Virus record (IMG/VR): IMGVR_UViG_3300014050_000128
Location: 1-24,815 of that record
Source: a virus
Length of the DNA stretch: 24,815 bases
Direction: 5' to 3' (one strand)
The stretch's first letter is position 1. Each line of letters opens with the position of its first letter. This document shows, piece after piece, positions 1,186 through 24,815 of this stretch. The notes under the pieces are model-generated. The model was not told where the DNA came from. It did not search any database and saw only the letters and a list, made by a program, of their open reading frames with translations. Made by a program: the position numbers and the translations under genes.

Positions 1186-1800
1186 ATGTATTACACTTAT
1201 GCATTCTTGCGGGAAGATAAAACACCTTATTATATTGGTAAAGGTAAAGGCAATAGGGCGCATAGAAAAAGATATAAAGGAATAAAACCTCCAAAAGATA
1301 AATCAAGAATAATCTTTCTCAAACAAAATTTAACTGAAGAAGAAGCATTTAAGCACGAAATCTATATGATTGCTGTCTTTGGTAGAAAAGATTTAGGAAC
1401 TGGTATTCTTCATAATAGAACTAATGGTGGAGATGGATGCACTGGTGCTATTCGCTCATTAGAATTCAAAGAAAATTTGAGAATTTTAAATAAAAATAAA
1501 ATTCTTTCAGAAGAACATAAAAGAAAAATAGGTGATGCCCAGAAAGGAACCAAAAATCATAATTATGGAAAATCTGCCTCATTAGAGACTAAAGAAAAAA
1601 TGAGCAGATCAAGGAGAGGAGAAAAACATCATTCATCTAAATGGTGGAAACTTACTTATACAACTGGAAATATAATTACGATATGTGGATTATCTATTTG
1701 GGCAAAAGAAAATGGTTACAATGTTGGTAATATTTACAGTATTTACACAGGAACTAGAAAAAAGCATAAAGATATTATAAAAGTTGAAAAACTAAAATAA
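1186..1800 (+). CDS. GIY-YIG homing endonuclease (copy 1) with NUMOD3 repeats
   Basis: A site-specific DNA endonuclease that cuts alleles lacking the element and so promotes its own copying. The 204-aa product has a GIY-YIG nuclease domain (about 1-90): YYTY at 2-5, YIG at 16-18, the conserved Arg24, catalytic Glu58 in KHEIYM, and Asn80 in TNGGDG. Two NUMOD3-type DNA-binding repeats follow (about 108-129 and 132-149; SEEHKRKIG and GEKHH blocks), then a C-terminal region resembling the helix-turn-helix repeats of intron-encoded nucleases (about 153-200). It lies opposite to the surrounding tail genes and ends 3 bp from the stop of the convergent 57-aa gene. Its nuclease domain is very close to that of the gene at 10055-10606, while the C-termini differ. 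Two late boxes precede it. The Shine-Dalgarno sequence is weak (AGAG). Confidence 0.92.
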   Translation: MYYTYAFLREDKTPYYIGKGKGNRAHRKRYKGIKPPKDKSRIIFLKQNLTEEEAFKHEIYMIAVFGRKDLGTGILHNRTNGGDGCTGAIRSLEFKENLRILNKNKILSEEHKRKIGDAQKGTKNHNYGKSASLETKEKMSRSRRGEKHHSSKWWKLTYTTGNIITICGLSIWAKENGYNVGNIYSIYTGTRKKHKDIIKVEKLK

Positions 1801-9812: not shown

Positions 9813-10055
9813 TTAGATTTTTTTTACTCTTGACCCAGGAGCCTTGCTTGCTTTAGAAAGGACATCGTTCCATCCAGGATTACGACTGATGAGTTTATCT
9901 TTCCACTCACCAACCTCTCCTGGTGTAGCACATCCTTGTGACCAATCACGGGACCAAGGTTTATTATTTTCATACCAATCCATAATATCATGGACACTCA
10001 TTTCAATAACTTTTTTTTCACCCGTTTCCGGATTATAAACTGGATATATTGCCAT
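9813..10055 (-). CDS. Small conserved phage protein, unknown
   Basis: An 80-aa product starting MAIYPVYNPETGEKK at 10055, where ATG overlaps the stop of the upstream endonuclease gene (TAATG). A frame five codons longer (from 10070) is possible but less likely. The protein is soluble, with a short beta start, a Trp-rich centre (IMDWYENNKPWSRDWSQGCATPGEVGEWKDKLI) and a basic tail (KAPGSRVKKI). I have no named family; similar small genes sit beside phoH in T4-like cyanophages. The coupling to an endonuclease stop suggests that the endonuclease gene inserted exactly upstream and kept a stop-start overlap. Confidence 0.7.
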   Translation of the reverse strand: MAIYPVYNPETGEKKVIEMSVHDIMDWYENNKPWSRDWSQGCATPGEVGEWKDKLISRNPGWNDVLSKASKAPGSRVKKI

Positions 10056-10606
10056 TAAACCAATCTCCATCCTTTATGTTGTTGCTGTCTTCCTCTACGC
10101 AAATCATATATGCAAGAGGGTTTTAAATTGTGTAGTTCACAAAATTCATTAATATTGTCACCATTATATATTTCCCCCTTTGGAGACATCAATTTAAACG
10201 ATTTAACATGTAAGGGAGGTTTTATTCCCATATCTTTATTTCGTTTAGAAAGACGATTTTTCGCATCTTCACTCATACCTGGACCCAATACTCTACCCTT
10301 GCAGGAATTTCGTATCTTTTCTTTACTTTTTTCAGTATGTCCAGTAAAGATAGGAGGAGCATCTCCACCATTTGATTTATTGCGAAGAATTCCAGTTCCC
10401 AAATCTTTTCTACCAAAAACATTAATCATATAAATTTCATGTTTATATGCAGCATCTTCTGTAAGATTATTTTTAAGAATGAGTATTCTGTCTTTTGGTG
10501 GAGGAGAAAAGAAATCATGTTTTTGATATGCTCTTCTACCTTTACCTTTACCAATATACCATGGAGTTTTATCTTCTCGTAAATAAGCGTAAGTATAATA
10601 CTCCAT
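10055..10606 (-). CDS. GIY-YIG homing endonuclease (copy 2)
   Basis: 183 aa. The GIY-YIG domain spans about 1-88, with YYTY (3-6), YIG (17-19), Arg24, catalytic Glu57 (KHEIYM) and Asn79 (SNGGDA). The region TGHTEKSKEKIRNSCKGRV...MSEDAKNRLSKRNK (about 88-123) looks like diverged NUMOD3 repeats, and the C-terminus (FKLMSPKGEIYNGDNINEF...HKGWRLV) resembles the DNA-binding repeats of intron-encoded nucleases. It shares most residues of the first ~85 with the gene at 1186-1800, but the C-terminal half is different, so the two likely recognise different sites. It lies in the same direction as the operon, between thyX and the 80-aa gene, with its own late box 24 nt before the ATG. Confidence 0.92.
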   Translation of the reverse strand: MEYYTYAYLREDKTPWYIGKGKGRRAYQKHDFFSPPPKDRILILKNNLTEDAAYKHEIYMINVFGRKDLGTGILRNKSNGGDAPPIFTGHTEKSKEKIRNSCKGRVLGPGMSEDAKNRLSKRNKDMGIKPPLHVKSFKLMSPKGEIYNGDNINEFCELHNLKPSCIYDLRRGRQQQHKGWRLV

Positions 10607-13272: not shown

Positions 13273-13509
13273 TCAAACAATATTTTGTTCTTTAAGATAT
13301 TTGATTGTGTCAACACATCCTCCTAATCTCTTATTATCACAAATAACCTGAGGAAAGGTAGATCCATCACCAAATTCCGAATAAAATTCTTCTTTAGTAA
13401 AATCCTCATTAAGAGTATACACCACAAACTTGTTTCCTGTCAACTCAAGAACTTGTTTGACTTTGTAGCAATATGGGCAATCCTCTTTTGAATAAACTGT
13501 AAAATTCAT
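13273..13509 (-). CDS. Glutaredoxin
   Basis: 78 aa; a compact glutaredoxin/thioredoxin-fold disulfide reductase. The active site is CPYC (12-15) in YSKEDCPYCYKVKQVLE; the TFPQVICDNKRLGG block (about 51-64) supplies the cis-Pro (Pro53) and the GG turn that binds glutathione. T4-likes use such proteins (NrdC role) as electron donors to ribonucleotide reductase; no nrd gene lies in this window. It follows the methyltransferase-glycosyltransferase gene by five bases, so it is probably read as the last gene of the glycan cassette. An AGGA lies 9 nt before the ATG. Confidence 0.92.
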   Translation of the reverse strand: MNFTVYSKEDCPYCYKVKQVLELTGNKFVVYTLNEDFTKEEFYSEFGDGSTFPQVICDNKRLGGCVDTIKYLKEQNIV

Positions 13510-13514
13510 GTTAA

Positions 13515-14846
13515 TTAAAATCCTAAATGTTTTTTTCTTACAAAATCTAAATTATATGTTGTATAACCTAATGGAAATGATTCGTTATTAAATGGATATT
13601 TATATGGATTTGTTTTAGTCCAATCATACCCCGGATCTATCCATTCTGGGCCCCATTTATAGTAAATGTACCAGTTTTCATTAAGAATACGACTATGTGC
13701 TAACTTTCCTTGTAATGATGGATCGACTCTCCAAGTTTGAGATCCTGTAGTAGCATAATCCTTTTCTCCATGAAGATAAGGAATATTAGAATGATTTGTT
13801 TTGATATTTGACAATATCAATCTGATATAGTAATCCACATCTTCTACATATGCAGGATAAAGATTTTCATCAAATAAACCACATTCTTGAACTACCCAGT
13901 CATTAATTAAAAATAAATCCCATTGTGCCTGTTCATTACCATAAACCATTCCAATATCAAGATCTTCATTTTTTTGAATAATATCTTTTAAAAGACCTGG
14001 AGAAAACTCAATATCATGATTTGAAATAATCCAATAAGGAGCATTCATATAACATTTAATAATCATGTTCCAAGCACCACTACAACCAATGTTCGCAGGA
14101 AGATGACATACTGTTATTTTCTTGATGTATTCATGCTTAATTTTTGCAAGATTATCAAGTTGTTCGGTTAGTTCTCCCCTACCATTATTATCCAAAATAA
14201 CCAATTCATTCACTGGATAATCCACACTATTAACTAGTCTCTCCATCCAATGAAATCCATTTACAATCGGAACTCCAATTACAGGAATTGGAGCATCCAC
14301 AGTAATTTCAGATTTTTTTATTCCCCAAAAATACAAATCTTTCGATTCATCATTAACCTCAAATTTATAATATTTAAATTGGTTATCAAAATTAATAAAC
14401 TGTCTGAAATCCCTTTCACTCAAATTACGATAGTATTCCCATCCCAAATTTACAGTTAATGGAGAATCTAATGGAGTAGATCTACTTGTACCGTGCTCAA
14501 GTCTTCCTTCGGTAGCACATGTGAAAAATACAAATCCACCTGGTTTACATAGGCGAATCATATTTTCAAATGTTTCTAACCAATATGGATTATGTTCAAA
14601 GCATTCGGCAGAACAAACTACATCATAAGAGTTGTCTGGAGCATCATACTTTTGACCTTCACATACAATATCAACACCATCACCTTCGGCAACATCTAAA
14701 CCAACATATTCGCAATTTTCAAAAAAATCACGAACAGTTCCATTAATGTTTAAACTACCAACTTCAAGAACAGTTTGATTTGAAAAATATTTTGGAGATC
14801 TTCTTTTTATTTTGTCAATAAAATCTCTTTGTTGATTATGTGCCAT
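13515..14846 (-). CDS. Methyltransferase-glycosyltransferase (GT2) fusion
   Basis: 443 aa from ATG 14846; a TTG start at 14858 would add four residues but overlaps the upstream gene. Domain 1 (about 1-180) is a class I SAM methyltransferase: motif I VLEVGSLNINGTVRDFF (about 26-42), acidic VGLDVAEGDGVDIV (about 48-61), and YDVVCSAECFEHNPYWLETFENMIRLCKPGGFVFFT (about 74-109) are intact. Domain 2 (about 186-400) is a GT2-type glycosyltransferase: PVIGVPIVNG, ELVILDNNG, PANIGCSGAWNMII and WIISNHDIEFSPG (DxD equivalent), then GLFDENLYPAYVEDVDYYIRL. One chain thus could add and methylate a sugar. The product joins the surface-glycan cassette and no membrane segment is seen. The sugar specificity cannot be read. 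Confidence 0.87.
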   Translation of the reverse strand: MAHNQQRDFIDKIKRRSPKYFSNQTVLEVGSLNINGTVRDFFENCEYVGLDVAEGDGVDIVCEGQKYDAPDNSYDVVCSAECFEHNPYWLETFENMIRLCKPGGFVFFTCATEGRLEHGTSRSTPLDSPLTVNLGWEYYRNLSERDFRQFINFDNQFKYYKFEVNDESKDLYFWGIKKSEITVDAPIPVIGVPIVNGFHWMERLVNSVDYPVNELVILDNNGRGELTEQLDNLAKIKHEYIKKITVCHLPANIGCSGAWNMIIKCYMNAPYWIISNHDIEFSPGLLKDIIQKNEDLDIGMVYGNEQAQWDLFLINDWVVQECGLFDENLYPAYVEDVDYYIRLILSNIKTNHSNIPYLHGEKDYATTGSQTWRVDPSLQGKLAHSRILNENWYIYYKWGPEWIDPGYDWTKTNPYKYPFNNESFPLGYTTYNLDFVRKKHLGF

Positions 14847-14854
14847 TAGTATTC

Positions 14855-17800
14855 TCAAAATTTTGTTAGATTTTCTTCTACCAATCTTGCATAGTCTGGA
14901 CTCAAATTGTAATTATGTTTGAGATCCAGAAATATAGATTTAGATTCACTATGTTTTCCCCACCAATATCCAGCAACCGATTTAGCAAATAAAAGACCAT
15001 ATTTTCCAGGATATTCAACATCGGTTTTAAGTGGTTCGAGATCAAAATTACATGTTCTCAAACCAGTATCGGCATAGATATAGCAATCTTGCCACCATTG
15101 TCTTTTATCTGAAAAACGACTTAACAAGAAATATGCTTCTGGTCTTTCTGGAAAAAGACACAATGCCTGTTGAAGAATACCTTTTGCAGTACCATCTCGT
15201 GTACCCTCTCTATCATAAGAATTGGAAGCATGTATTAATGCCTCATAAGAAAGAGTGATATCATCCGATCTCTCTGCACATCTCAGAAAATAAGAAAGAG
15301 CTGCAGAATTATGTCCTTGTTTTTCATATTCTAATGCAAGATTAAAATTTAATTGTGCATTTTCAGTATCCAAAGAATATTCATATAGTAAATTCTGCAG
15401 ACTAATTTCTTTAGAATTCATTTCGGGTAAAAGATAATCTTTAACATTTTGAAGTTTAAAGATAATACTTGGAAGATCCTTAATTGAATAAGATTTTAAA
15501 ATTAAATTTGCGTTTCCAGATGGGGAAATTTTTCCTTCACCCGGAATATAGTTTTCCATATAACTATACAATTCATTATAAGAATTAAAATCATTATTCA
15601 AAAAACTCTTCAAATCAGCATTCCAATGGCAGAAAGATTTGAATTTTTCAATATAATTTTGAGAAGTTCCCATCCAACTAAAATGCCATCCCAAATCTTG
15701 TAGAACTTGATCTCCTTGACAAGAATATGCTATTGGATATGAAAGTTGATATTCTGCTCGTATTTTTGTGGCACTAGATGATTCTAAATGCCTTTTCAAA
15801 CACATAAACATGGATTTATTCCATTCATGAATAGTTCCATCTAAATTATATGCCCTCAAATCCGCTCTTGCTTCAAGATGTACCAAAGGAATCTTAAGAA
15901 TACTTTGGGGATTATCTCTTTGAATATTTGAAAGAAATTCTACATTATTTGGATTAATTATTTCATCACAATCACTAATAATAAAAACATCATCGTCATT
16001 AAATTCATCTAAGATATTACCAATAGCATCTCTTTGAATTCTTTCTCTACTTGCAATTTTTAGATTTGGTTCATAAAATAAATCATAATGACTTGGATCT
16101 CCAATACTTTCATCAGACAAATCAAGTTCAATAACTTTAATCTTATTTTCTGGCAATTTAAGATCTTTAATTGTTTTTTTACAAGTAAATTCCTTTGGAA
16201 TACCACTGTGAGTATAATTGGCATCAATGATTACAAAAGTATCTACATAATCCTTTAATAAATTAATTCGAAATTCTAAGAGTTCCTTTTCATTAAAATA
16301 TGGAAAGCAATCTACTACTTTACGTTTTTTTATAAATGGATTCTTTGCCTTTACGATAAATGATTCTGGCATGGTTATTTTTTCACAATTTTTCCACCAA
16401 TTTAAAACTGATTGATGTGCTTTATAATGGTTATTTTTCTGACCATCATTAACATCATCGTCATTTCCAACGAATGTTGATTCAAAATTAATATCTTCTA
16501 CAAAGATAGGATAAGTATAAGTTTTACCTATTGAAGTAAATAAAATATTTTCTATCAAAGGCATTATTTCTTGATTAGGTATTTCTAAATGAAATGAATC
16601 TTGCTGACAATAGGTATCTATGAGTTTTTTAGCATACTCTCTTTTTATAATATATGCAGTTGCAGACCAATCATCCCAGTAACGATCCCTAAGTTTAATT
16701 TCACCAAAGTCACTACGAATAGAAAGCAATTGAACAGATTCCCAATCCTCTGGAAGATTTTGAATCATTTCTTCCCAAGTAAAATTCCAATATTCGACTG
16801 TCTCCAAACTTAAATCATCTTCACAGAAAAATCCATAAGGTTCATCAGTATTATTATACCATGTTTTAATTGCTTTTAGATGAGATACGCAACATCCTTT
16901 TGTGCCATCGTTTAAAGTATGGGCATATTTTCCAGTTATAATATCATCAGATTCTGCAAATTTTTTAGAAAGAAAAGGATTTGGTTTAATACCATATTGT
17001 TCAAATTGTTTTTCTAAATTTTTTTGCCTATCAGTACATTCTTCCAAACTCATATAATAAACTGTAGGAAATCCCTTTAATTTAGAATTGCCAATATCAG
17101 TGGCAAAATAATTTTGCTCATCCATTGGAATTATATTCCAAGAACTTTTTGATTCTACATAATATTCAGTAATTTCACCAATCCATTCCTTATTCTGATT
17201 TATATGTTTTTGTGAAATGGCATATTCTACTTGCCATTCTAGTTCTTGTCCGCTATAGAATTGTGATAAATTATCATTGACCATTTGACGATAAGTCTCA
17301 TCCGATCCAAATCCTTCAAAGTTTTCAGTTCTTTTATTATCTGGATGAGGTAAATGAGTTAAAAGATAATCAAAATCAATTTTTATTTCAGTTAGTCCAA
17401 GTAGATTTAAACGCTGAAATAATTCATCATCTTCATATGCATAACATTTACCCAATATTTCATTATATCCACCAACCTTTAGGAAATTTTCTTTTTTAAT
17501 TAATAAAAATCCTGTCAAATATTTAAAGTATGGACTATATGAATTATAATAAGTATACAATTCTTGATCAGTCAATGTATTTTTATCGACCATAGAAAGT
17601 CCTGTCTCTGGATGAATAAACTCAGGACTTTTATAATTATGACGCCCAGATACAAAAGAGTTGTCGTCAATTTTATACTTATCGAAAAAATTATAATAAG
17701 GATTAAGAATATAATCAGTATCAACTTTTAATAGATATTCATTTTTAGCAATACTTGCGGCTAAATTTAATGGTTGTGGTTGATTAAAATATTTCTTATC

Positions 17801-17977
17801 ATTTACACGAATGACTTTAATTCTTGAATCTAATTTTGTAAGATGATTAATTGGTTCATCCGAGCACCAATCAACAATAATGATTTCATCAATTTCATCA
17901 AATGCCAACCAAGAATTCAATGAAATTCTAAGGGCATTATATCTATTTTTACATGCACAAATTAACGAAATTTTCAT
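14855..17977 (-). CDS. Triple glycosyltransferase (GT2 + GT25 + GT17) with C-terminal TPRs
   Basis: 1040 aa from ATG 17977 (MKISLICACKNRY). The open frame continues 40 codons further up, but this would overlap the fucosyltransferase gene. Domain 1 (about 1-240) is GT2-like: DTD at 86-88, and GGYNE...CYAYEDDELFQRL (about 169-190). Domain 2 (about 304-530) is GT25-like (LPS glycosyltransferase or collagen galactosyltransferase family): VYYMSLEE-TDRQ, GCCVSHLKAIKTW, FFCEDDLS (EDD 386-388) and DDWSATAYIIKREYAKKLI. Domain 3 (about 553-790) resembles GT17 (beta-1,4-N-acetylglucosaminyltransferase): VVDCFPYFNEKELLEFRI, FVIIDANYTHSG, RERIQRDAI, DDVFIISDCDEI, and GWHFSWMG. The C-terminus (about 870-1040) has TPR-like repeats (NFNLALEYEKQGHNSAALSYFLRCAE). 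The three catalytic domains on one chain suggest stepwise assembly of a short glycan. Confidence 0.85.
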   Translation of the reverse strand: MKISLICACKNRYNALRISLNSWLAFDEIDEIIIVDWCSDEPINHLTKLDSRIKVIRVNDKKYFNQPQPLNLAASIAKNEYLLKVDTDYILNPYYNFFDKYKIDDNSFVSGRHNYKSPEFIHPETGLSMVDKNTLTDQELYTYYNSYSPYFKYLTGFLLIKKENFLKVGGYNEILGKCYAYEDDELFQRLNLLGLTEIKIDFDYLLTHLPHPDNKRTENFEGFGSDETYRQMVNDNLSQFYSGQELEWQVEYAISQKHINQNKEWIGEITEYYVESKSSWNIIPMDEQNYFATDIGNSKLKGFPTVYYMSLEECTDRQKNLEKQFEQYGIKPNPFLSKKFAESDDIITGKYAHTLNDGTKGCCVSHLKAIKTWYNNTDEPYGFFCEDDLSLETVEYWNFTWEEMIQNLPEDWESVQLLSIRSDFGEIKLRDRYWDDWSATAYIIKREYAKKLIDTYCQQDSFHLEIPNQEIMPLIENILFTSIGKTYTYPIFVEDINFESTFVGNDDDVNDGQKNNHYKAHQSVLNWWKNCEKITMPESFIVKAKNPFIKKRKVVDCFPYFNEKELLEFRINLLKDYVDTFVIIDANYTHSGIPKEFTCKKTIKDLKLPENKIKVIELDLSDESIGDPSHYDLFYEPNLKIASRERIQRDAIGNILDEFNDDDVFIISDCDEIINPNNVEFLSNIQRDNPQSILKIPLVHLEARADLRAYNLDGTIHEWNKSMFMCLKRHLESSSATKIRAEYQLSYPIAYSCQGDQVLQDLGWHFSWMGTSQNYIEKFKSFCHWNADLKSFLNNDFNSYNELYSYMENYIPGEGKISPSGNANLILKSYSIKDLPSIIFKLQNVKDYLLPEMNSKEISLQNLLYEYSLDTENAQLNFNLALEYEKQGHNSAALSYFLRCAERSDDITLSYEALIHASNSYDREGTRDGTAKGILQQALCLFPERPEAYFLLSRFSDKRQWWQDCYIYADTGLRTCNFDLEPLKTDVEYPGKYGLLFAKSVAGYWWGKHSESKSIFLDLKHNYNLSPDYARLVEENLTKF

Positions 17978-18014
17978 AAGAATTAATAAAGAGCAAAAAT
18001 AATTAAATTTTTTA

Positions 18015-18758
18015 TTATATAGTGATCCAATCTGGAAGGTATAAATCTTGAGTATTCCAATGAGAAAATTCACCACAAAACCATTTTCTGGGAGCAAAGG
18101 TTTTTTGACTTTTTGCTAACCAAGATCCCCACCAACTAAAAGATGAGTTAGCAATAATATGATAATTGCAATGACTCATCAAACACAAATCAATGTAAGA
18201 ATTGTTTGACATTGAAATGGTAAATTTTTTATCAGTAAAATAGTTTTTACACCATTGAATATCATCACTGAATATTATGACAGGTACATCAGGCAATTGT
18301 TGTAATGCATTCTCATAATAATCCATTCCCAATACTACAAAATTACTATTCGTCAAATAATCCGATCTTCTGATATGAAGAGAAATAATTTCATCAGAAT
18401 AAATTTGATCAATATAAATTTTGCAAATATTAGATACTCTATCATGAAAAGTAAAATCTTGCCTAATTTCATTTTCAATATGTTTGAAATATTTTTCAGT
18501 CTGAAAGTATCCAAAAATATCAATATTGTCTGGACAGGTATTAAAAAAATTTTCATCAAATTCAAATTTTTCTGTTGAAAATATTTCACTATTTTTATTT
18601 TGTTTTGTTCTTGGCAATTTGAAGCAATCATATAATGGATTATCTCTTGAGACAGAGTATGAATAATTTTTATGAGATGCTATTCCTCTGAGAGCAGAAT
18701 ATTGGAACATCTGATTTCCCAATCTTCCAAGGTATCCGATATTATTAAAAGAAATCAT
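18015..18758 (-). CDS. Alpha-1,2-fucosyltransferase (GT11)
   Basis: 247 aa. It has the GT11 hallmarks: N-terminal GYLGRLGNQMFQYSALRGIA (8-27), HIRRSDY at 128-134 (the HxRRxD GDP-fucose motif), a middle IIFSDDIQWC block, and NSSFSWWGSWLA (about 203-214). It transfers fucose from GDP-fucose to a galactose-type acceptor. It is cytoplasmic by pattern (no signal or membrane segment) and slightly shorter than bacterial homologues (about 280-300 aa). No Shine-Dalgarno sequence is visible before ATG 18758, and the gap to the upstream methyltransferase gene is 28 bp. Fucose-containing surface glycans are common receptors, so phage-made fucosylation could mask host receptors or decorate the fibre. Confidence 0.92.
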   Translation of the reverse strand: MISFNNIGYLGRLGNQMFQYSALRGIASHKNYSYSVSRDNPLYDCFKLPRTKQNKNSEIFSTEKFEFDENFFNTCPDNIDIFGYFQTEKYFKHIENEIRQDFTFHDRVSNICKIYIDQIYSDEIISLHIRRSDYLTNSNFVVLGMDYYENALQQLPDVPVIIFSDDIQWCKNYFTDKKFTISMSNNSYIDLCLMSHCNYHIIANSSFSWWGSWLAKSQKTFAPRKWFCGEFSHWNTQDLYLPDWITI

Positions 18759-18786
18759 GTTTATAATTCAATTTCAAATCAACCAA

Positions 18787-19467
18787 TTATTTTCTTTTAA
18801 CAAAAATAAAATCTGTTCCAAAATGTGCTTTAGTATTTCCCCAAACTAAATCAAATCCCCTTTCTTGAAGAAATGTATTAACATCCTTAAAAAGACATTG
18901 ACCCTCATACATTGGATTAACTTCCAATTCAGTGTGAATAACTTTTACACTATCAAGTAAATTACCCATACTCTTCAGTGCTTTTAACTCTGCTCCCTGA
19001 AGATCCATCCAAATAGCATCTATGTGATCTATATTATTATTCCTACAATAAGTATCTATTCTAGTGCAAGGTACTTCTATTTCATACTGAACATATTTTT
19101 CTATATTATCATACGCCCCATTCGCCAAATATAAACTTGATGCACCTTGATTTCCATCTTCCCAAGTTGTAATTGTTTTTTCTTTATCCATTGGATAAAA
19201 CTTACAAGATCCATCAAACTCATTAATTGCTTGATTAACAACTGTGATTGATGAAATATTTTTAGTATTGTTTAAACAGACTTGGTAAGAAACTGGATTT
19301 GGTTCAAATGCAACTATTCGTGCTGCCGTATATAATTTGGAAAATTCTACGGATTCCAAACAGTGGCAAGAACCAATATCAAAAATAACCTTTACATCTG
19401 GAATTAATTTAAAATTTTCACCAATAAATCTATTAAAAATACTTATATCTGATGCATGATATTGCAT
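18787..19467 (-). CDS. FkbM-family methyltransferase
   Basis: 226 aa; the FkbM family of SAM-dependent O-methyltransferases, usually acting on sugars. SAM motif I VIFDIGSCHCLESVEF (28-43) and acidic AFEPNP (53-58) are followed by INEFDGSCKFYPMD, the family GASSLY block (about 87-92), and the diagnostic IDAIWMDLQGAELKALKSM (about 148-166), ending in a conserved FD-VWGN----TDFIFVK. It probably methylates the growing glycan. An extended -10 box (TGTTATAAT, 19496-19488) precedes ATG 19467 and may give it a second promoter. Both neighbours are on the same strand and close. Confidence 0.9.
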   Translation of the reverse strand: MQYHASDISIFNRFIGENFKLIPDVKVIFDIGSCHCLESVEFSKLYTAARIVAFEPNPVSYQVCLNNTKNISSITVVNQAINEFDGSCKFYPMDKEKTITTWEDGNQGASSLYLANGAYDNIEKYVQYEIEVPCTRIDTYCRNNNIDHIDAIWMDLQGAELKALKSMGNLLDSVKVIHTELEVNPMYEGQCLFKDVNTFLQERGFDLVWGNTKAHFGTDFIFVKRK

Positions 19468-19487
19468 ATTATTCTCTTAATTTATCA

Positions 19488-19517
19488 ATTATAACATATT
19501 TAACTAAATTTTCACAA
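19488..19517 (-). promoter_or_regulatory. Possible extended -10 promoter before the FkbM gene
   Basis: TGTTATAAT (19496-19488) with a weak -35 TTGTGA (19517-19512), spacer 18. The -10 box is shared with the gp32 and propeller-gene promoters, apart from one base in the latter. It overlaps the 3' end of the upstream gene. Confidence 0.5.
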
Positions 19518-20333
19518 TAAATTTTTTGTATTTTTAGAGTGTATATGTAAATTTACTATTGGATATTCTTTACCTTCAAACAAAACATAGGGTTTTTTAT
19601 CTTTCATGATTGGAATTATTTTCTCACTTTGAATTTCTCTACCGATAATATGAGTATGGTGTGCAAATCCTGGGGGATGACCTTGATGAGTTCCTCCAAA
19701 ATATTGCCCATAGGAAGAAGGATCAAATATAATTCCAGTTTCATTTGGTAAAATATTTAATAAGTTAATTAAATCTGGTCTTCTTACCATTATACTATAC
19801 AAAAGCCTCATCTCATTAGGCATATCTGATCCATATTCATATTGCTTTTGCTTATCAAAAACAATCTCATGTAATATCTCACAAATCTCATCTATTTTTT
19901 CAATTGAAGAAAATCTAGAAAAACCAAAAACAACTTCAGTTTCATTATGATATGTAATTGATAATCCCTCAGGGTTATCAATTAGATTCGAAAATAGTTT
20001 CGATGATTGAAACATCAAAACATCTGAATCAAAATGATAGCAACTTTCTAATCCAAGATGCCTAATTGCATCTCTAACAAGAAATACTCTAAAAATTGAT
20101 GTTCGCCAAAGAGGATTTGGATCATCAGAAAATAAATCCATGTTAAGAACTCTTTTTGTTTGATCAGATGAAATATCACTAACCTGCAATATTTCAATTC
20201 CATTCATTTCAAATTTTTGATCTGTTATTAAAATAATTCTGGAATCTGGATCTACATTATTAATTGATTCTATAGAATCTAAAAGATGTGAAGGTGGCAT
20301 TTCACCTATATGACAATGAACATAAGTAATCAT
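19512..20333 (-). CDS. GT-A type glycosyltransferase (DxD protein)
   Basis: 273 aa, a GT-A-like glycosyltransferase of unassigned family. The nucleotide-sugar fold is suggested by MITYVHCHIGEMPPSHLLDSI (1-21) and IILITDQKFE (about 33-42), a WRTSIFRVFLVRDAI segment (about 76-90), and the metal-binding DSD at 102-104 (HFDSDVLMF). Downstream it has IIFDPSSYGQYFGGTHQGHPPGFAHHTHIIG (about 200-230), rich in His and Gly, which recurs in phage and bacterial transferases of this kind. The start overlaps the stop of the gene upstream by 4 bp (ATGA). Probable sugar transfer to the cassette's product; donor and acceptor unknown. Confidence 0.72.
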   Translation of the reverse strand: MITYVHCHIGEMPPSHLLDSIESINNVDPDSRIILITDQKFEMNGIEILQVSDISSDQTKRVLNMDLFSDDPNPLWRTSIFRVFLVRDAIRHLGLESCYHFDSDVLMFQSSKLFSNLIDNPEGLSITYHNETEVVFGFSRFSSIEKIDEICEILHEIVFDKQKQYEYGSDMPNEMRLLYSIMVRRPDLINLLNILPNETGIIFDPSSYGQYFGGTHQGHPPGFAHHTHIIGREIQSEKIIPIMKDKKPYVLFEGKEYPIVNLHIHSKNTKNLL

Positions 20334-21085
20334 TTTATATTTCTCCTATAAGCATGGCAGGACACAAAATCATAATCAATTTTAAAATTATCTAGATCAA
20401 AATTAGATGGAATAAAATCTATATCTTTCCAAATTAGTTGTCTTTGATTACACATCTCTGGATATTTTATTAACATATAGTTAGCATACAAATCCCATTC
20501 ACTGAAGCAAGATGCTTCATTGTAATCAACTATATCTAAAATACAATCTGCGAATGATTTACCGTCAAATCTATTCTCAATATATTCAAGTAATTGATTT
20601 ATTTTTTTCTTATTAAAAATCATATGATGAGAAATGCAAGAAAATCCAATAGTATCTTCAACATCCAACAATAATTTAGTTGGTGGTAGATATGGAGTAT
20701 GATATTCTTCTGCTATACAATAATAAAATTTTTTTTCATCAAAAGAAATGTCCTTAAGAAATATAGTATCAGAATCCACAAGAACAAAAGATTCTGATAG
20801 ATTATGAATTACTTTTACAGAAAATAATTTAAGAAATTGTTGATACAACCAGTTTGATCTATAAGAAAGGTTTGGATTTTTATTTTCCCATATTGTGTGA
20901 ATCTTTTCTTTAGTTATGTATTTGGAATAATTTTCTTCAGGAATATGAGTAGTACCAAATATTTTTGGATCTTTTTCAGAAATAACAAATATTTTATCAC
21001 ATACTGCAATATTATTTCTTATTCCATCAACAGATAATTGAAGAGAACAAAAATCTTTTGGATGGCAGGGAATAACAAAATCCAT
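20330..21085 (-). CDS. DUF6492-like glycosyltransferase
   Basis: 251 aa from ATG 21085, MDFVIPCHPKD. An in-frame GTG at 21103 overlaps the upstream stop and would add six residues, so the start is not certain. The 'DFVIP-HPKD' opening, the FVLVDSDTIFLK metal motif (DSD at about 104-106), the SNWLYQQFLKL helix and the H-M-F-K pattern (CISHHMIFNK) fit the DUF6492 group of putative glycosyltransferases seen in phages and in bacterial surface-glycan clusters. A C-terminal HAYRRNIK tail is short. The stop overlaps the next gene by 4 bp, so it is part of the same transcript. Sugar unknown. Confidence 0.68.
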   Translation of the reverse strand: MDFVIPCHPKDFCSLQLSVDGIRNNIAVCDKIFVISEKDPKIFGTTHIPEENYSKYITKEKIHTIWENKNPNLSYRSNWLYQQFLKLFSVKVIHNLSESFVLVDSDTIFLKDISFDEKKFYYCIAEEYHTPYLPPTKLLLDVEDTIGFSCISHHMIFNKKKINQLLEYIENRFDGKSFADCILDIVDYNEASCFSEWDLYANYMLIKYPEMCNQRQLIWKDIDFIPSNFDLDNFKIDYDFVSCHAYRRNIK

Positions 21086-21099
21086 ATTTTTAAATATAA

Positions 21100-22080
21100 T
21101 CACAATTCAATAAATTGTTTGACAAAATCTTTAGAAGCACGAAGTAAGTATGCAGCATTATCTTGAAATCCAAAAGTGATCAAATAATCATTTTTGGATT
21201 CGGTCATACCAACAGCAAACTCAATTTCGGCATTTAAGAATGAAAACTGTTTTGATACTTTTACAATATTCCAATCTTCATCCCAAACAATAAATCGATG
21301 TTTATAAGTTCCATCCTTTCTTCCTGCTGGACTCTTAAATAAAAAGGTTTCATGATTCAAACAAAACCTTTGTTTATTTTCAAAAGGAATGACTTGAGAT
21401 CCTCCACGCAAATCAATACATCCAATATCTTTCCAATTGGTAAGTACAACCTGTTCAGTAGTTCCAGTTTTAATATCATATTTCACAACTTCAGTACCAT
21501 TAGTCCACTTCACAAAATGATATGGCATATCAACGATTGGCATCCAATTCTTTTCACAATAAGAATCATTTGCTCCTGGAGTTGGAATACGATATTGATT
21601 AATTTCTTTTACTGAATTTTCCGAAATTTCTAGTTCGGAAAGTTCCATTCTCCCAGTTCCAATTGAATCTAAATCTCTTCGCACACCAGTAACATAAAGT
21701 TTTCCTTCCCAACGAACAATACGGCAGTCTTCCAATCCAACAAATTCCCAAAGTTCCTTATCAGGAAATTTAGAAGTGTCAATACGGTGATATGATTTCA
21801 TTTGCATATTTTCATCCAATTCGCACATAATATTATTTGTGCGAAGATGCATATCATTTTCTGGATGAATATAAACTAAAGGTCCCCAAGGATGCTCAAA
21901 TTTTTTCTTCTCTGAATGATATAATGTGTAATTAATATTCCTAAGGTTAACTAAAATCTTACCATTATCATTATAAACAGAAGGATTGGTAAGAGAAGGT
22001 CCTTTTAAGTCTGATGATGGAATAAGAAGTGGATGAATACTTCCACCATTTTCAAGAGCAAGTTTAACAAAATTACTCAT
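21100..22080 (-). CDS. Five-bladed propeller protein, GH43/GH130-like
   Basis: 326 aa. The repeated beta pattern and the motifs LTNPSVYNDNGKILVNLRNINYTLYH (about 30-55), FVGLEDCRIVRWEGKLYVTGV (about 113-133) and CEKNWMPIVDMP (about 174-185) are like the GxEDPR and NW-P sites of five-bladed beta-propeller glycosidases and phosphorylases (GH43/GH130 type). In phage glycan cassettes such proteins are usually annotated as predicted glycosylases. Whether it cleaves, phosphorolyses or only binds sugars is not shown; the usual 'EDP' reads EDC here. It is the first gene of the glycan cassette, directly after a strong sigma70 promoter, and its stop overlaps the GTG alternative start of the next gene. 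Confidence 0.7.
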   Translation of the reverse strand: MSNFVKLALENGGSIHPLLIPSSDLKGPSLTNPSVYNDNGKILVNLRNINYTLYHSEKKKFEHPWGPLVYIHPENDMHLRTNNIMCELDENMQMKSYHRIDTSKFPDKELWEFVGLEDCRIVRWEGKLYVTGVRRDLDSIGTGRMELSELEISENSVKEINQYRIPTPGANDSYCEKNWMPIVDMPYHFVKWTNGTEVVKYDIKTGTTEQVVLTNWKDIGCIDLRGGSQVIPFENKQRFCLNHETFLFKSPAGRKDGTYKHRFIVWDEDWNIVKVSKQFSFLNAEIEFAVGMTESKNDYLITFGFQDNAAYLLRASKDFVKQFIEL

Positions 22081-22103
22081 AAATCCAGTATAGTTTATTC
22101 AAA

Positions 22104-22132
22104 AGTATAACATATTTTAGAAGTAAAGTCAA
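22104..22132 (-). promoter_or_regulatory. Sigma70 promoter of the glycan cassette
   Basis: TTGACT (22132-22127), 17-bp spacer, TATACT (22109-22104), with TG one base before the -10 box. Ten of twelve hexamer bases match consensus. It lies 23 bp before ATG 22080 and after the fibre stop, so the cassette need not depend on fibre transcription. No clear terminator separates them; only a short CTAAAA/TTTTAG palindrome (22137-22149) is visible. Confidence 0.78.
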
Positions 22133-22166
22133 TATACTAAAAATTTTAGCATTCGATGTGATATAT

Positions 22167-24815
22167 TTAATTAATTTTGAATATCTCCATCTTCGTCCAA
22201 GCCCCATCAGCAGTTCCAGTAACTGTTTGTCCTCCTGGATTTCCAGTATAAACAGTAAAATCAATATAATCTGTTGTTCCATTCATAGTTACAATACCAC
22301 AGGCATTCATTGTGTATTGGAATGTTTGTATGCCAACTTGAGATATTGCAAAAGTACTGCCATTTTTTCTTAACTGAATATTTGTTTGGTTATTTGTAAC
22401 CGAACCCGCAGAAATGTTCATCATTGCGTCAACATGATAAGTTCCTGCAACAGTTGGAGTTGTGCGAGTTGTAATACCACTATACCAACCATTAGTATCA
22501 CTTGTTGCAGTAAAACCAATTAAAGTATCAGTATTAATAGGTATAGTTTGGTTTGTAAGTCTTGCAAGTTTTACATAATAATTTCCAGCAGCATTTAGGT
22601 TTCCAGTAATGGTTGTAACACCACTAATTCTTACATTACCAACAATATCCAATTTTGATATTGGATTTGTGGTTCCAATACCTAGATTACCAGAAACATA
22701 AGCACCACCAGTAACCTGAAGAAGTTGTGATGCAGTTCCTGTTGAAGTTGCGGATCCTACAAGAAGATTACCGGAACTTGTAATTCTCAATAATTCTGTT
22801 CCGTTTGATGCTGCAAGAAATGGAATTGCTTTCTGCCCTGCACCAGGACTTGATAATAAGTATGCATCTGCATAAACACCAATACATTGTGCCTTTCCAT
22901 AAGCAACAAACTTACCTCCAATTGCACCTTCCAATAGTGCCCCATTATTAACATTATAAGTAGTGGTAGCAACATTTGCAGTTCCCTCTACACCAATATT
23001 AAGAGTTCCATAATTATTAGCAGTATTACTCGATAAACCTACAATAGATGATGCGGTTTGATATGCTTGGGTTGTTGTGTAAGTATACGCTTCAATTCCA
23101 TAATAAGGACCACCATATAATCCAGCAGTTCCAGGAATATCAATTCTAATTCCAGTTTGTGGCGCATATCTCCCACCAAGTTGATTAACTTTTATTCCAT
23201 ATTGTCTTGTGGTAGTTATGGGTAAATAATAACCCATTCCAACTTGAAGTGCTGTTGTGGCATTTGCAGGATCTCCAGAAGAATAATAAATTTCAGCATA
23301 TGCACTAGAAATACCTGCAGGATCTGCTCTTCCAACTCCAAGATTACCAGAAACATAAGCACCACCAGTAACCTGAAGTAGTTGTGATGCGGTTCCTGTT
23401 ATTGCTGTGGATCCTAATACAAGTTCTCCAGTCCCAAAAAGAGTTGCAATAGTTGTAATTCCCGCATACCATTTAAAGTTTCTGGAGATATTTGGAATAG
23501 AATTCCATAAAGTATCTGTGTCATAACCAATAGCATAATCTACCGCAACGGAATTTATGTTTGGATATAACGTAATTTTAGTTCCAGGACTTCTTGTTGA
23601 GAATGTGGGGGCACCAATACCATTTTGGTTAAAGTCAATTCTATTTCCATTTGAACCATTCAGGTAAAATTGTCCACCACCATCTGCGGCAGAGTTTGCT
23701 TGTGTAGATTGAAATTGATTTGAAATTACAATACTTCCTGCTGTTGTGTTATCAGTAACACCAACACCTATTCCACCACTAATGTAAGCATTGCCAGTGA
23801 CCTGAAGTCTTTGTGATGCAGTTCCTGTTGAGGTTGCAGATCCTACAAGAATATTACCTGCGTGATACATCGGTGAAGATGTATCAGAACTATAAATGGA
23901 ATAACGATTGGTTAAAGTTCCACTAACAATTGGAGTTGCTAAATATAAACCATAATAATTTGTAAGTTGTCCCGTAAGTGCTACTGTTGGTGCTACATAA
24001 TATCCATAATAATTAGTGATAGTTCCAATACCAGTTCCTGATGCAGCACCGACTTGCATAATGTTATAGGAACCATAAGCATTGGTTGATGATGCAGAAC
24101 GGTTTGCTGGTGTGCCGACTGCTGTTGAATTATATGTGGTATAAATGTTAGTTGCAGTTGCTTTGGTAATACTAACTGTATTTTCACTTCCGTATGCAAA
24201 TCCTGTTACAACAGATTGATCTATATTAGTTAGATGAGATACGAAATTGACACTCCCAGTAAGAACATTAGATGCATAAGAAGAAACATCAGTTGTACTG
24301 TTTCTATATACACCATTATAAAATCCACATCCACCAATTCTTGCGGTAGATGCAGTTCCCGCAACATTAGTATAATTTTGCAATCCATAAAGAGTTGCAG
24401 AATAACTTCCGTTTGCAGAAGTCAATGCGTGACTGAATATTGATGGTTCGTAATATTTAATGGCAGTCTGAGAAGCATCAAAACTATATGCGGTTTCTGG
24501 TTGAACCAATAGATCAACTGATGATGCATTATAATTCTTACTATCTAATGTAGTATACCAAATAGACTGAGTGCTTCCTATTGAAGTTTCTACTTTTGTG
24601 GTTCCATTAACTTGGAGAGTTGTTGTTGGATTTGTGGTTCCAATACCTACATTCTGACTTGAAGCAATATAAACAAAATTAGTAGCACCAGCAGATACAT
24701 TATTGTTATTGAAGATAACTTGAGTATTAGATCCAGAAATAGGCCCAGTTAAACCTTGAACACCTTGTGTTCCTTGAGTACCCTGAAGTCCTTGAACACC
24801 TTGTGTTCCTTGAGT
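22167..24815 (-). CDS. Collagen-like tail fibre or whisker protein, 3' part
   Basis: The frame is open from the right window edge to TAA at 22167 (882 aa, 5' end missing). An apparent start at 24509 is only an internal TTG codon. Seen in order: seven Gly-X-Y triplets (TQGTQGVQGLQGTQGTQGVQ, then GLTGP) at residues 1-25; a VGIGTTNPTTTLQVNG module; a Tyr/Ser/Thr-rich beta region (to about 300); then three more 'LQVTG(G/N)AY(V/I)SG-(L/I)G(V/I)G' modules near 315, 460 and 680; and a C-terminal ~115-aa head (YYVKLARLTNQTIPINTDTLIGF...TKMEIFKIN) that resembles a C1q/TNF-like trimer. Such modular fibres are host-recognition structures. The Ala/Ser/Thr/Gly-rich composition and periodic SAT-STGTASQLLQVTG blocks show repeated module duplication. 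Confidence 0.85.
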   Translation of the reverse strand, partial: TQGTQGVQGLQGTQGTQGVQGLTGPISGSNTQVIFNNNNVSAGATNFVYIASSQNVGIGTTNPTTTLQVNGTTKVETSIGSTQSIWYTTLDSKNYNASSVDLLVQPETAYSFDASQTAIKYYEPSIFSHALTSANGSYSATLYGLQNYTNVAGTASTARIGGCGFYNGVYRNSTTDVSSYASNVLTGSVNFVSHLTNIDQSVVTGFAYGSENTVSITKATATNIYTTYNSTAVGTPANRSASSTNAYGSYNIMQVGAASGTGIGTITNYYGYYVAPTVALTGQLTNYYGLYLATPIVSGTLTNRYSIYSSDTSSPMYHAGNILVGSATSTGTASQRLQVTGNAYISGGIGVGVTDNTTAGSIVISNQFQSTQANSAADGGGQFYLNGSNGNRIDFNQNGIGAPTFSTRSPGTKITLYPNINSVAVDYAIGYDTDTLWNSIPNISRNFKWYAGITTIATLFGTGELVLGSTAITGTASQLLQVTGGAYVSGNLGVGRADPAGISSAYAEIYYSSGDPANATTALQVGMGYYLPITTTRQYGIKVNQLGGRYAPQTGIRIDIPGTAGLYGGPYYGIEAYTYTTTQAYQTASSIVGLSSNTANNYGTLNIGVEGTANVATTTYNVNNGALLEGAIGGKFVAYGKAQCIGVYADAYLLSSPGAGQKAIPFLAASNGTELLRITSSGNLLVGSATSTGTASQLLQVTGGAYVSGNLGIGTTNPISKLDIVGNVRISGVTTITGNLNAAGNYYVKLARLTNQTIPINTDTLIGFTATSDTNGWYSGITTRTTPTVAGTYHVDAMMNISAGSVTNNQTNIQLRKNGSTFAISQVGIQTFQYTMNACGIVTMNGTTDYIDFTVYTGNPGGQTVTGTADGAWTKMEIFKIN
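22674..22773. repeat. Fibre module repeat, copy A
   Basis: DNA for GSATSTGTASQLLQVTGGAY-SGNLGIG. A 38-bp run (22684-22721) is identical to copy B at 23341-23378. Boundaries are approximate. Confidence 0.75.
23331..23422. repeat. Fibre module repeat, copy B
   Basis: Same module as copy A, 657 bp away, with 38 identical bases and a diverged edge (AITGTASQLLQ). Boundaries are approximate. Confidence 0.75.
23762..23858. repeat. Fibre module repeat, copy C
   Basis: A more diverged copy (SATSTGTASQRLQVTGNAYISGGIGVG); the part for GSATSTGTASQ is almost identical in DNA to copy A. Boundaries are approximate. Confidence 0.65.
24754..24815. repeat. Tandem repeat coding for collagen-like Gly-X-Y
   Basis: A 26-base stretch (24754-24779) recurs exactly at 24790-24815, period 36 bp, i.e. 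four Gly-X-Y triplets. The repeat continues past the window edge, so its copy number is unknown. Confidence 0.85.

Follow-up and report, generated by a model that had tools for sequence, protein, structure and literature searches.

In the glycosylation of BclA in Bacillus, the sugar enzymes are encoded near the collagen-like fibre. FlmG of Caulobacter, a TPR-plus-glycosyltransferase protein, O-glycosylates flagellins, and its TPR region is both required and sufficient for flagellin binding (PMC7591256). Phage glycosyltransferases that modify virion proteins are described for the mycobacteriophages Che8, Corndog and Myrna in passages of two articles that cite the original work (PMC12619734, PMC12363180). 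In the T4-like pelagimyophages and cyanomyophages, several glycosyltransferase genes are located beside the tail fibres in the host recognition cluster, according to a survey (PMC7029224). Furthermore, the GH130 beta-mannoside phosphorylases and the GT108 GDP-Man-dependent mannosyltransferases, such as the Leishmania MPTs, possess a five-bladed propeller.

The window, that is, the whole 24.8-kb virus record analysed here, carries a cassette of seven sugar genes (A to G) adjoining a fibre gene. Gene A is predicted to adopt the same five-bladed propeller at about 10–15% identity to GH130/GT108, a likeness of predicted fold only, and it represents a separate phage family that is always paired with a TPR protein among the matches listed. 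FlmG and the cassette are alike in placing a TPR domain in a soluble glyco-enzyme, the solubility of the cassette enzymes being predicted, and the cytoplasmic modification of a filament protein carried out by FlmG is proposed for the cassette as well. However, FlmG utilizes a single GT-B domain, whereas the TPR domain here occurs with GT2/GT25/GT17, methyltransferase, radical SAM or DUF6445 domains, and its binding of an acceptor is suggested by analogy. The host recognition cluster is the same kind of genome region, also with several glycosyltransferase genes, but the excerpted sections of the survey present a GT8-rich content with LPS-type genes and do not describe the A–TPR pair or its promoter. 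In the mycobacteriophages, which are not T4-like, the glycosylation described in the citing passages is found on the capsid and the tail tube and is not fibre-linked. Compared with BclA, the link to collagen is not general here, and the triplet Thr is not conserved.

Layout and enzymes of the cassette

The window is a fragment of a T4-like cyanomyovirus, a virus of cyanobacteria. Among annotated genomes, it is closest to two T4-like cyanomyoviruses, Synechococcus phage S-SRM01 (78% DNA identity over 17%) and S-SKS1, and the core genes gp53, gp54, gp32, gp59, gp33, phoH, thyX and nrdC stand in the same order as in S-SRM01. Seven co-directional sugar ORFs (13515–22080, minus strand, 8.6 kb) are situated between a partial tail-fibre-type gene (22167–24815, minus strand) and a glutaredoxin gene; in S-SRM01, no sugar genes exist between the fibre genes and nrdC, and the fibre genes reach nrdC directly. 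From A to G, the intergenic distances are −4, −4, 44, 28, 37 and −4 nt, so that the ORFs overlap or are closely spaced; all reading frames are intact, and the seven ORFs probably form one operon. A seven-gene glycan cassette beside a fibre had been proposed in a sequence-only reading of this DNA, and its extent holds except at the right border, where 13273–13509 (minus strand), included in the stretch of that reading, is not a sugar gene but encodes the NrdC glutaredoxin by Pfam/PHROG and lies outside the cassette. The partial fibre gene (882 aa, open at the window edge, with its 5' part beyond the window) has no Pfam/PHROG match. The description of this fibre as collagen-like applies to the eight Gly-X-Y triplets within the window, at about 24738–24815, and not to the other ~850 aa.

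Gene A (326 aa; 21100–22080, minus strand) and gene C (273 aa; 19512–20333, minus strand) have no Pfam/PHROG match, and searches of both sequences against solved structures returned nothing useful, including no PDB match for A; fold comparison placed both. The AlphaFold model of A, generated with 44 aligned sequences (pLDDT 85), is a five-bladed propeller over its full length, with Z of 20–24 to GH130 (best Z 23.6, rmsd 3.0 over 266 residues, 9fj8_B) and 18.4 to GT108 (6q4z_A). The best Foldseek matches are likewise GH130/GT108. Weak matches to Pfam GH130 (PF04041) occur in 14 of the 44 relatives of A (best E 9.3e-5) and are absent from the A of the window itself, and the motifs GLED-x-R, RRD and KNWMP, as well as residue D118, are invariant. 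By the fold criterion, A is therefore predicted to be a GH130/GT108 mannoside-propeller, presumably a beta-mannosyl transferase or phosphorylase. In the case of C, the model (pLDDT 89.5) gives Z of 15–16 to LARGE1, a GT8 protein and GlyE; it is a predicted GT8-like glycosyltransferase with a GT-A fold, and its D-x-D (102–104) is invariant among relatives.

The other enzymes were assigned by domain matches. Gene B (257 aa; 20330–21103, minus strand) belongs to DUF6492 by Pfam, is glycosyltransferase-like and contains a DSD motif. Gene D (226 aa; 18787–19467, minus strand) is an FkbM-family methyltransferase, above the cut-off for both PF05050 (8.3e-23) and TIGR01444. Gene E (247 aa; 18015–18758, minus strand) is a GT11 of the alpha-1,2-fucosyltransferase type (PF01531, 6.7e-27, 94.9 bits against a cut-off of 23.9; PHROG 2644), with relatives in 102 phage records. 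Gene F (1040 aa; 14855–17977, minus strand) contains, by Pfam/PHROG, an N-terminal GT2 domain, GT25 and GT17 domains and a C-terminal TPR domain (residues ~860–1040; 14855–15400, minus strand) identified by TPR Pfam matches. Gene G (447 aa; 13515–14858, minus strand) combines a methyltransferase with GT2 by Pfam/PHROG. The GT2, GT25, GT17 and GT11 domains and both methyltransferases of the sequence-only reading are thereby confirmed, while the propeller fold of A, the GT-A fold of C and the TPR domain of F go beyond it.

That reading linked the GT25 domain to the family of the collagen galactosyltransferases. The domain (PF01755, 26.1 bits against a cut-off of 24; PHROG 2835, 5.9e-52) matched bacterial GT25 structures (8xlz as the nearest, and 8xc8) and mimivirus R655 in a profile search of solved structures, and COLGALT was not among the matches listed from that one file. 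Taken singly, the cassette enzymes add new members to known families. In addition, none of the seven proteins contains a long hydrophobic segment, which makes it probable that the enzymes are soluble and work in the cytoplasm, and no flippase, polymerase, Gtr-like or membrane protein was found in the operon by Pfam/PHROG and hydrophobicity.

The A–TPR pair and its distribution

Relatives were gathered with F (68 viral loci), with A (best 80) and with a divergent A profile in viral contigs (best 80); further relatives came from C, B and the A profile in genomes (5 loci). The retrieval of the best 80 skews the sample to close relatives, most of them metagenomic fragments. The A loci were dereplicated only at 90–95% identity of gene A and are phylogenetically non-independent, and the p-values given below are thus indicative.

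Among the matches listed, a TPR partner accompanies 107/107 distinct A genes for which 3 kb or more of downstream sequence is available, and the A–TPR pairs all share a strand (122/122), with 83 being immediate neighbours. Each of nine large records, including two complete cultured phages, contains exactly one A and one TPR-type gene, together. The domains joined to the TPR vary: an FkbM-like methyltransferase in most partners among the matches listed, GT2/GT25/GT17 in the kin of the window, and radical SAM/SPASM or DUF6445 in cultured phages, while GT25 is missing from many of the listed partners. A and its TPR partner form an obligate pair, and the attached catalytic domains are exchangeable. 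In a second T4-like phage group (38 distinct loci among the matches listed), downstream of the pair stands a fusion of a nucleotidyltransferase with a cupin of the mannose-6-phosphate isomerase type, which fits mannose chemistry. The pair of this group sits inside the structural gene array, ahead of gp14, and a gp14-like gene was found in 24 of the 38 listed loci.

Relatives of gene A are encoded by at least 580 viral-contig stretches (more than 580 among the matches listed). Meanwhile, a scan of 84,980 prokaryote genomes (species), which relied on two short motifs that distant relatives would escape, yielded 5 matches, at least two of them adjoining phage structural or fibre genes. The cultured phages with the pair are Synechococcus phage S-SCSM2R, for which WH7803 serves as laboratory host, and DSL-LC02. 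Actinomycetia phage DSL-LC01 encodes a distant propeller (23.8% identity) that was excluded from the A family, no fibre or TPR neighbour being annotated. No published description of the pair was found in the open-access literature, and, as far as our searches show, an A–TPR pair with exchangeable domains and its own promoter in fibre regions is undescribed there.

Fibre linkage and the promoter before A

Genes were counted as fibre-like on the basis of their Gly/Ser/Thr/Asn content, of collagen triplets and of S74-like ends, a heuristic that misses some fibres. By these criteria, and among the matches listed, a fibre-like gene lies at most 3 kb upstream of A in 74 of 106 distinct loci, and the other 32 have none within 3 kb. 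Across the nine large records, most other genes lie farther from a fibre-like gene than A does (Fisher p about 1e-3), and the solitary GT25 and GT11 genes of these records are mostly not close to fibres. The sequence-only reading had named cassettes far from collagen-like fibres as evidence against itself. Such cassettes are partly what was found, with a collagen-like gene at most 3 kb upstream in only 23 of the 106 listed loci, and the closeness to fibres in general survives. In the second group, a collagen-like gene is present in 0/31 loci at most 3 kb upstream and in 0/17 within 5 kb, again among the matches listed. The fibre of this group usually has a Peptidase_S74 chaperone end in place of the collagen-like tract: the S74 domain is found in 8/9 upstream genes tested, and the ninth contains YadA head repeats. 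One collagen-like fibre of the first group combines collagen domains with S74 domains.

Collagen-like tracts occur in 22 of the 25 records searched and are therefore a background property, whose mere presence is uninformative. The share of Thr at the X positions of the triplets ranges from 63% to 1% among the cassette phages, and the value of 1% belongs to a fibre directly beside A (record G014). With few collagen-like genes upstream and such variable triplet Thr, the cassette is coupled to fibres and not to collagen triplets, and collagen-specific coupling was rejected as a general rule. Of the earlier idea that the cassette glycosylates the neighbouring fibre, the linkage between a glycan cassette and a fibre gene stands, and the tie to the collagen-like triplets falls.

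Within the 86-nt gap between the fibre and the cassette, a sigma70-like promoter with an extended −10 (TTGACT-N17-TATACT; 22132–22104, minus strand) precedes A, as the sequence-only reading had noticed, and relatives now support its position. Counted over the region, sigma70-like matches are not above chance (67 versus 74 in shuffles), and hence only a position-specific comparison with relatives is informative. TATAAT together with a −35 matching in at least 4/6 positions was found before A in 21/85 first-group and 16/37 second-group loci among the matches listed, compared with 29/531 control ORFs of comparable gap size (p 2e-7 for the first group and 6e-10 for the second), and several loci carry a perfect TTGACA-17-TATAAT (12/12 consensus). 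Such conservation of position indicates that a separate transcription unit often begins with the pair, though it lies among structural genes. The best explanation is a host-sigma70-type, early-type promoter separate from the surrounding late fibre genes, from which, by analogy with T4-like phages in general, the A–TPR operon would be transcribed early in the infected cell. The late motif NATAAATA before A is enriched versus all ORFs but not versus ORFs with a similar upstream gap, and a late promoter is thus not claimed.

Candidate acceptors of the glycan

The cassette is best explained as an early-made, TPR-guided, fucosylating and methylating cytoplasmic glycan operon that would most likely modify the fibre or other virion proteins of the phage itself, a reading to which we assign a probability of roughly 0.45. 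Its fixed core would consist of A, as a beta-mannosyl-type propeller, and of a TPR domain bearing varied glycan- or protein-modifying domains, the functions of both being suggested by fold and analogy. Soluble cytoplasmic enzymes would build a short glycan containing mannose, hexose and fucose directly on protein, and O-methylation by the FkbM enzyme would cap it. The TPR domain may hold the acceptor, as in FlmG, and the likeliest acceptor would be the tail fibre or a different virion protein whose gene lies alongside. The gene content, the folds predicted for A and C, the pair, the fibre linkage and the conserved promoter-like site are computed results, and we infer the sugars, the order of their addition, the docking of the acceptor on the TPR domain, the timing and the virion target. 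Since the TPR of FlmG binds its flagellin acceptors, the obligate TPR gives the strongest hint at the acceptor of the cassette; together with the near-absence of A from prokaryote genomes and the tie to fibres, it points to the phage's own proteins, and the mycobacteriophage enzymes provide a precedent.

The main rival is the modification of the host surface, in which early enzymes alter the LPS/O-chain or another envelope glycan and mask the receptor recognised by the adjoining fibre, which would shut out other phages or keep progeny from being lost on debris; we regard this as a serious candidate, if a tentative one. The early-type promoter, in some loci a perfect consensus, suits host takeover no less than virion glycosylation. 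The variable enzyme content agrees with remodelling, and receptor specificity would account for the fibre linkage, which enzymes altering the receptor of the fibre would also yield. The authors of the pelagimyophage survey prefer this explanation for the glycosyltransferases of the host recognition cluster; they also present the fibre region as a general hypervariable site, which counts against the virion reading (PMC7029224). The 32 listed loci with no fibre-like gene within 3 kb count against it too. On the other hand, an obligate TPR partner suggests a protein as acceptor or scaffold and not a lipid-linked one, genes for a membrane protein, flippase, polymerase or Gtr-like protein are missing from the operon, prokaryote genomes contain hardly any relative of A, and the second-group pair is embedded in the structural gene array. 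The hypervariability of the region, and the lack of the cassette at the same site in S-SRM01, would also suit host-derived sugar genes that accumulate there as unselected passengers, but this is improbable given the invariant pairing and order of A and TPR over two phage groups (among the matches listed), the conserved promoter and the intact reading frames.

A BclA-like glycosylation of Thr in the Gly-Thr-Gln triplets of collagen-like fibres is very unlikely. It is favoured by the GT25 domain, by the adjacency in the window and in several relatives (a collagen-like gene immediately upstream in 12 of 68, among the matches listed) and by an A-to-collagen-like-gene distance shorter than that of other genes in the nine records (Fisher p about 1e-4). 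Yet the second group has no collagen-like gene upstream, the adjacent fibre of G014 has almost no Thr at X, many listed partners have no GT25, and the GT25 domain of F resembles bacterial GT25. Decoration of modified bases of the phage genome, as in T4 and some metagenomic phages, seems the least probable of all. An early-type promoter would suit it, and virus glycosyltransferases that add diverse glycans to DNA exist (Pyle et al. 2024, as cited in a passage of PMC12619734). Nevertheless, a gene of the thymidylate synthase/dCMP hydroxymethylase family (PF00303) had no match in eight large pair-bearing records (two complete genomes and six possible fragments), which makes DNA glycosylation of the T4 type unlikely.

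More broadly, the preferred reading of virion-protein glycosylation may extend, as a possibility we hold tentatively, to a widespread phage-specific protein glycosylation in T4-like phages, in which a propeller and TPR core with tethered, exchangeable domains would take the neighbouring fibres as acceptor and furnish the receptor-binding proteins with a quickly changeable glycan coat. The A–TPR pair is a precise and countable marker, relatives of A being encoded in the viral-contig stretches counted above, and with the pair-bearing cultured phages S-SCSM2R and DSL-LC02, the target of the glycosyltransferases of T4-like aquatic phages becomes testable. If the fibres are glycosylated, host range and adsorption in abundant aquatic phages would hinge on sugars invisible in the fibre sequence, which many host predictions made from fibres would overlook.

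Gene A and the genes around the A-TPR pair

An extra domain is fused to gene A, the predicted GH130/GT108-fold propeller gene of the cassette, at the relatives' loci L078, L084, L094, L112, L065, L126 and L127, where the fused forms are 539–798 aa long. Where A is not immediately preceded by a fibre, its place is often taken by a small conserved protein (~118–122 aa; L098, L113, L118, L144, L076, L081, L083 and L007) whose sequence ends in ...ARSVYITNDKRAEIKKRINE...YREVKIY.

Sugar genes outside the pair

In the cyanophages, GT25 and GT11 genes standing alone are common. S-SRM01, a close relative of the window, carries, within 197431–210234 (L326), a separate GT11/GT25/FkbM/GT2 cluster without the A-TPR pair (gene A and its TPR-domain partner), adjoining hli, ferredoxin and psbA genes.

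Other features of the window

The ORFs at 1186–1800 (+) and 10055–10606 (-) look like GIY-YIG homing endonucleases and resemble each other, sharing the start YYTYA(F/Y)LREDKTPxYIGKGKG; an ORF of equal length to the latter (552 nt) lies at the equivalent position adjoining thyX in S-SRM01. Inside nrdC, the glutaredoxin gene bordering the cassette, a sigma70-like promoter match (TTGACA-18-TATACT, 11/12; 13414–13443, -) is directed toward the genes downstream of the cassette.

Modification-type genes

Immediately ahead of the A-TPR pair, radical-SAM-like genes and a 2OG-oxygenase-like gene were recognized by eye in L241 (29–2977 and 3461–4057) and L303 (1345–4333 and 6542–7108). In the cultured phages S-SCSM2R and DSL-LC02, the TPR itself is joined to DUF6445 or radical SAM/SPASM. 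It is conceivable that protein hydroxylation or another modification precedes glycosylation.
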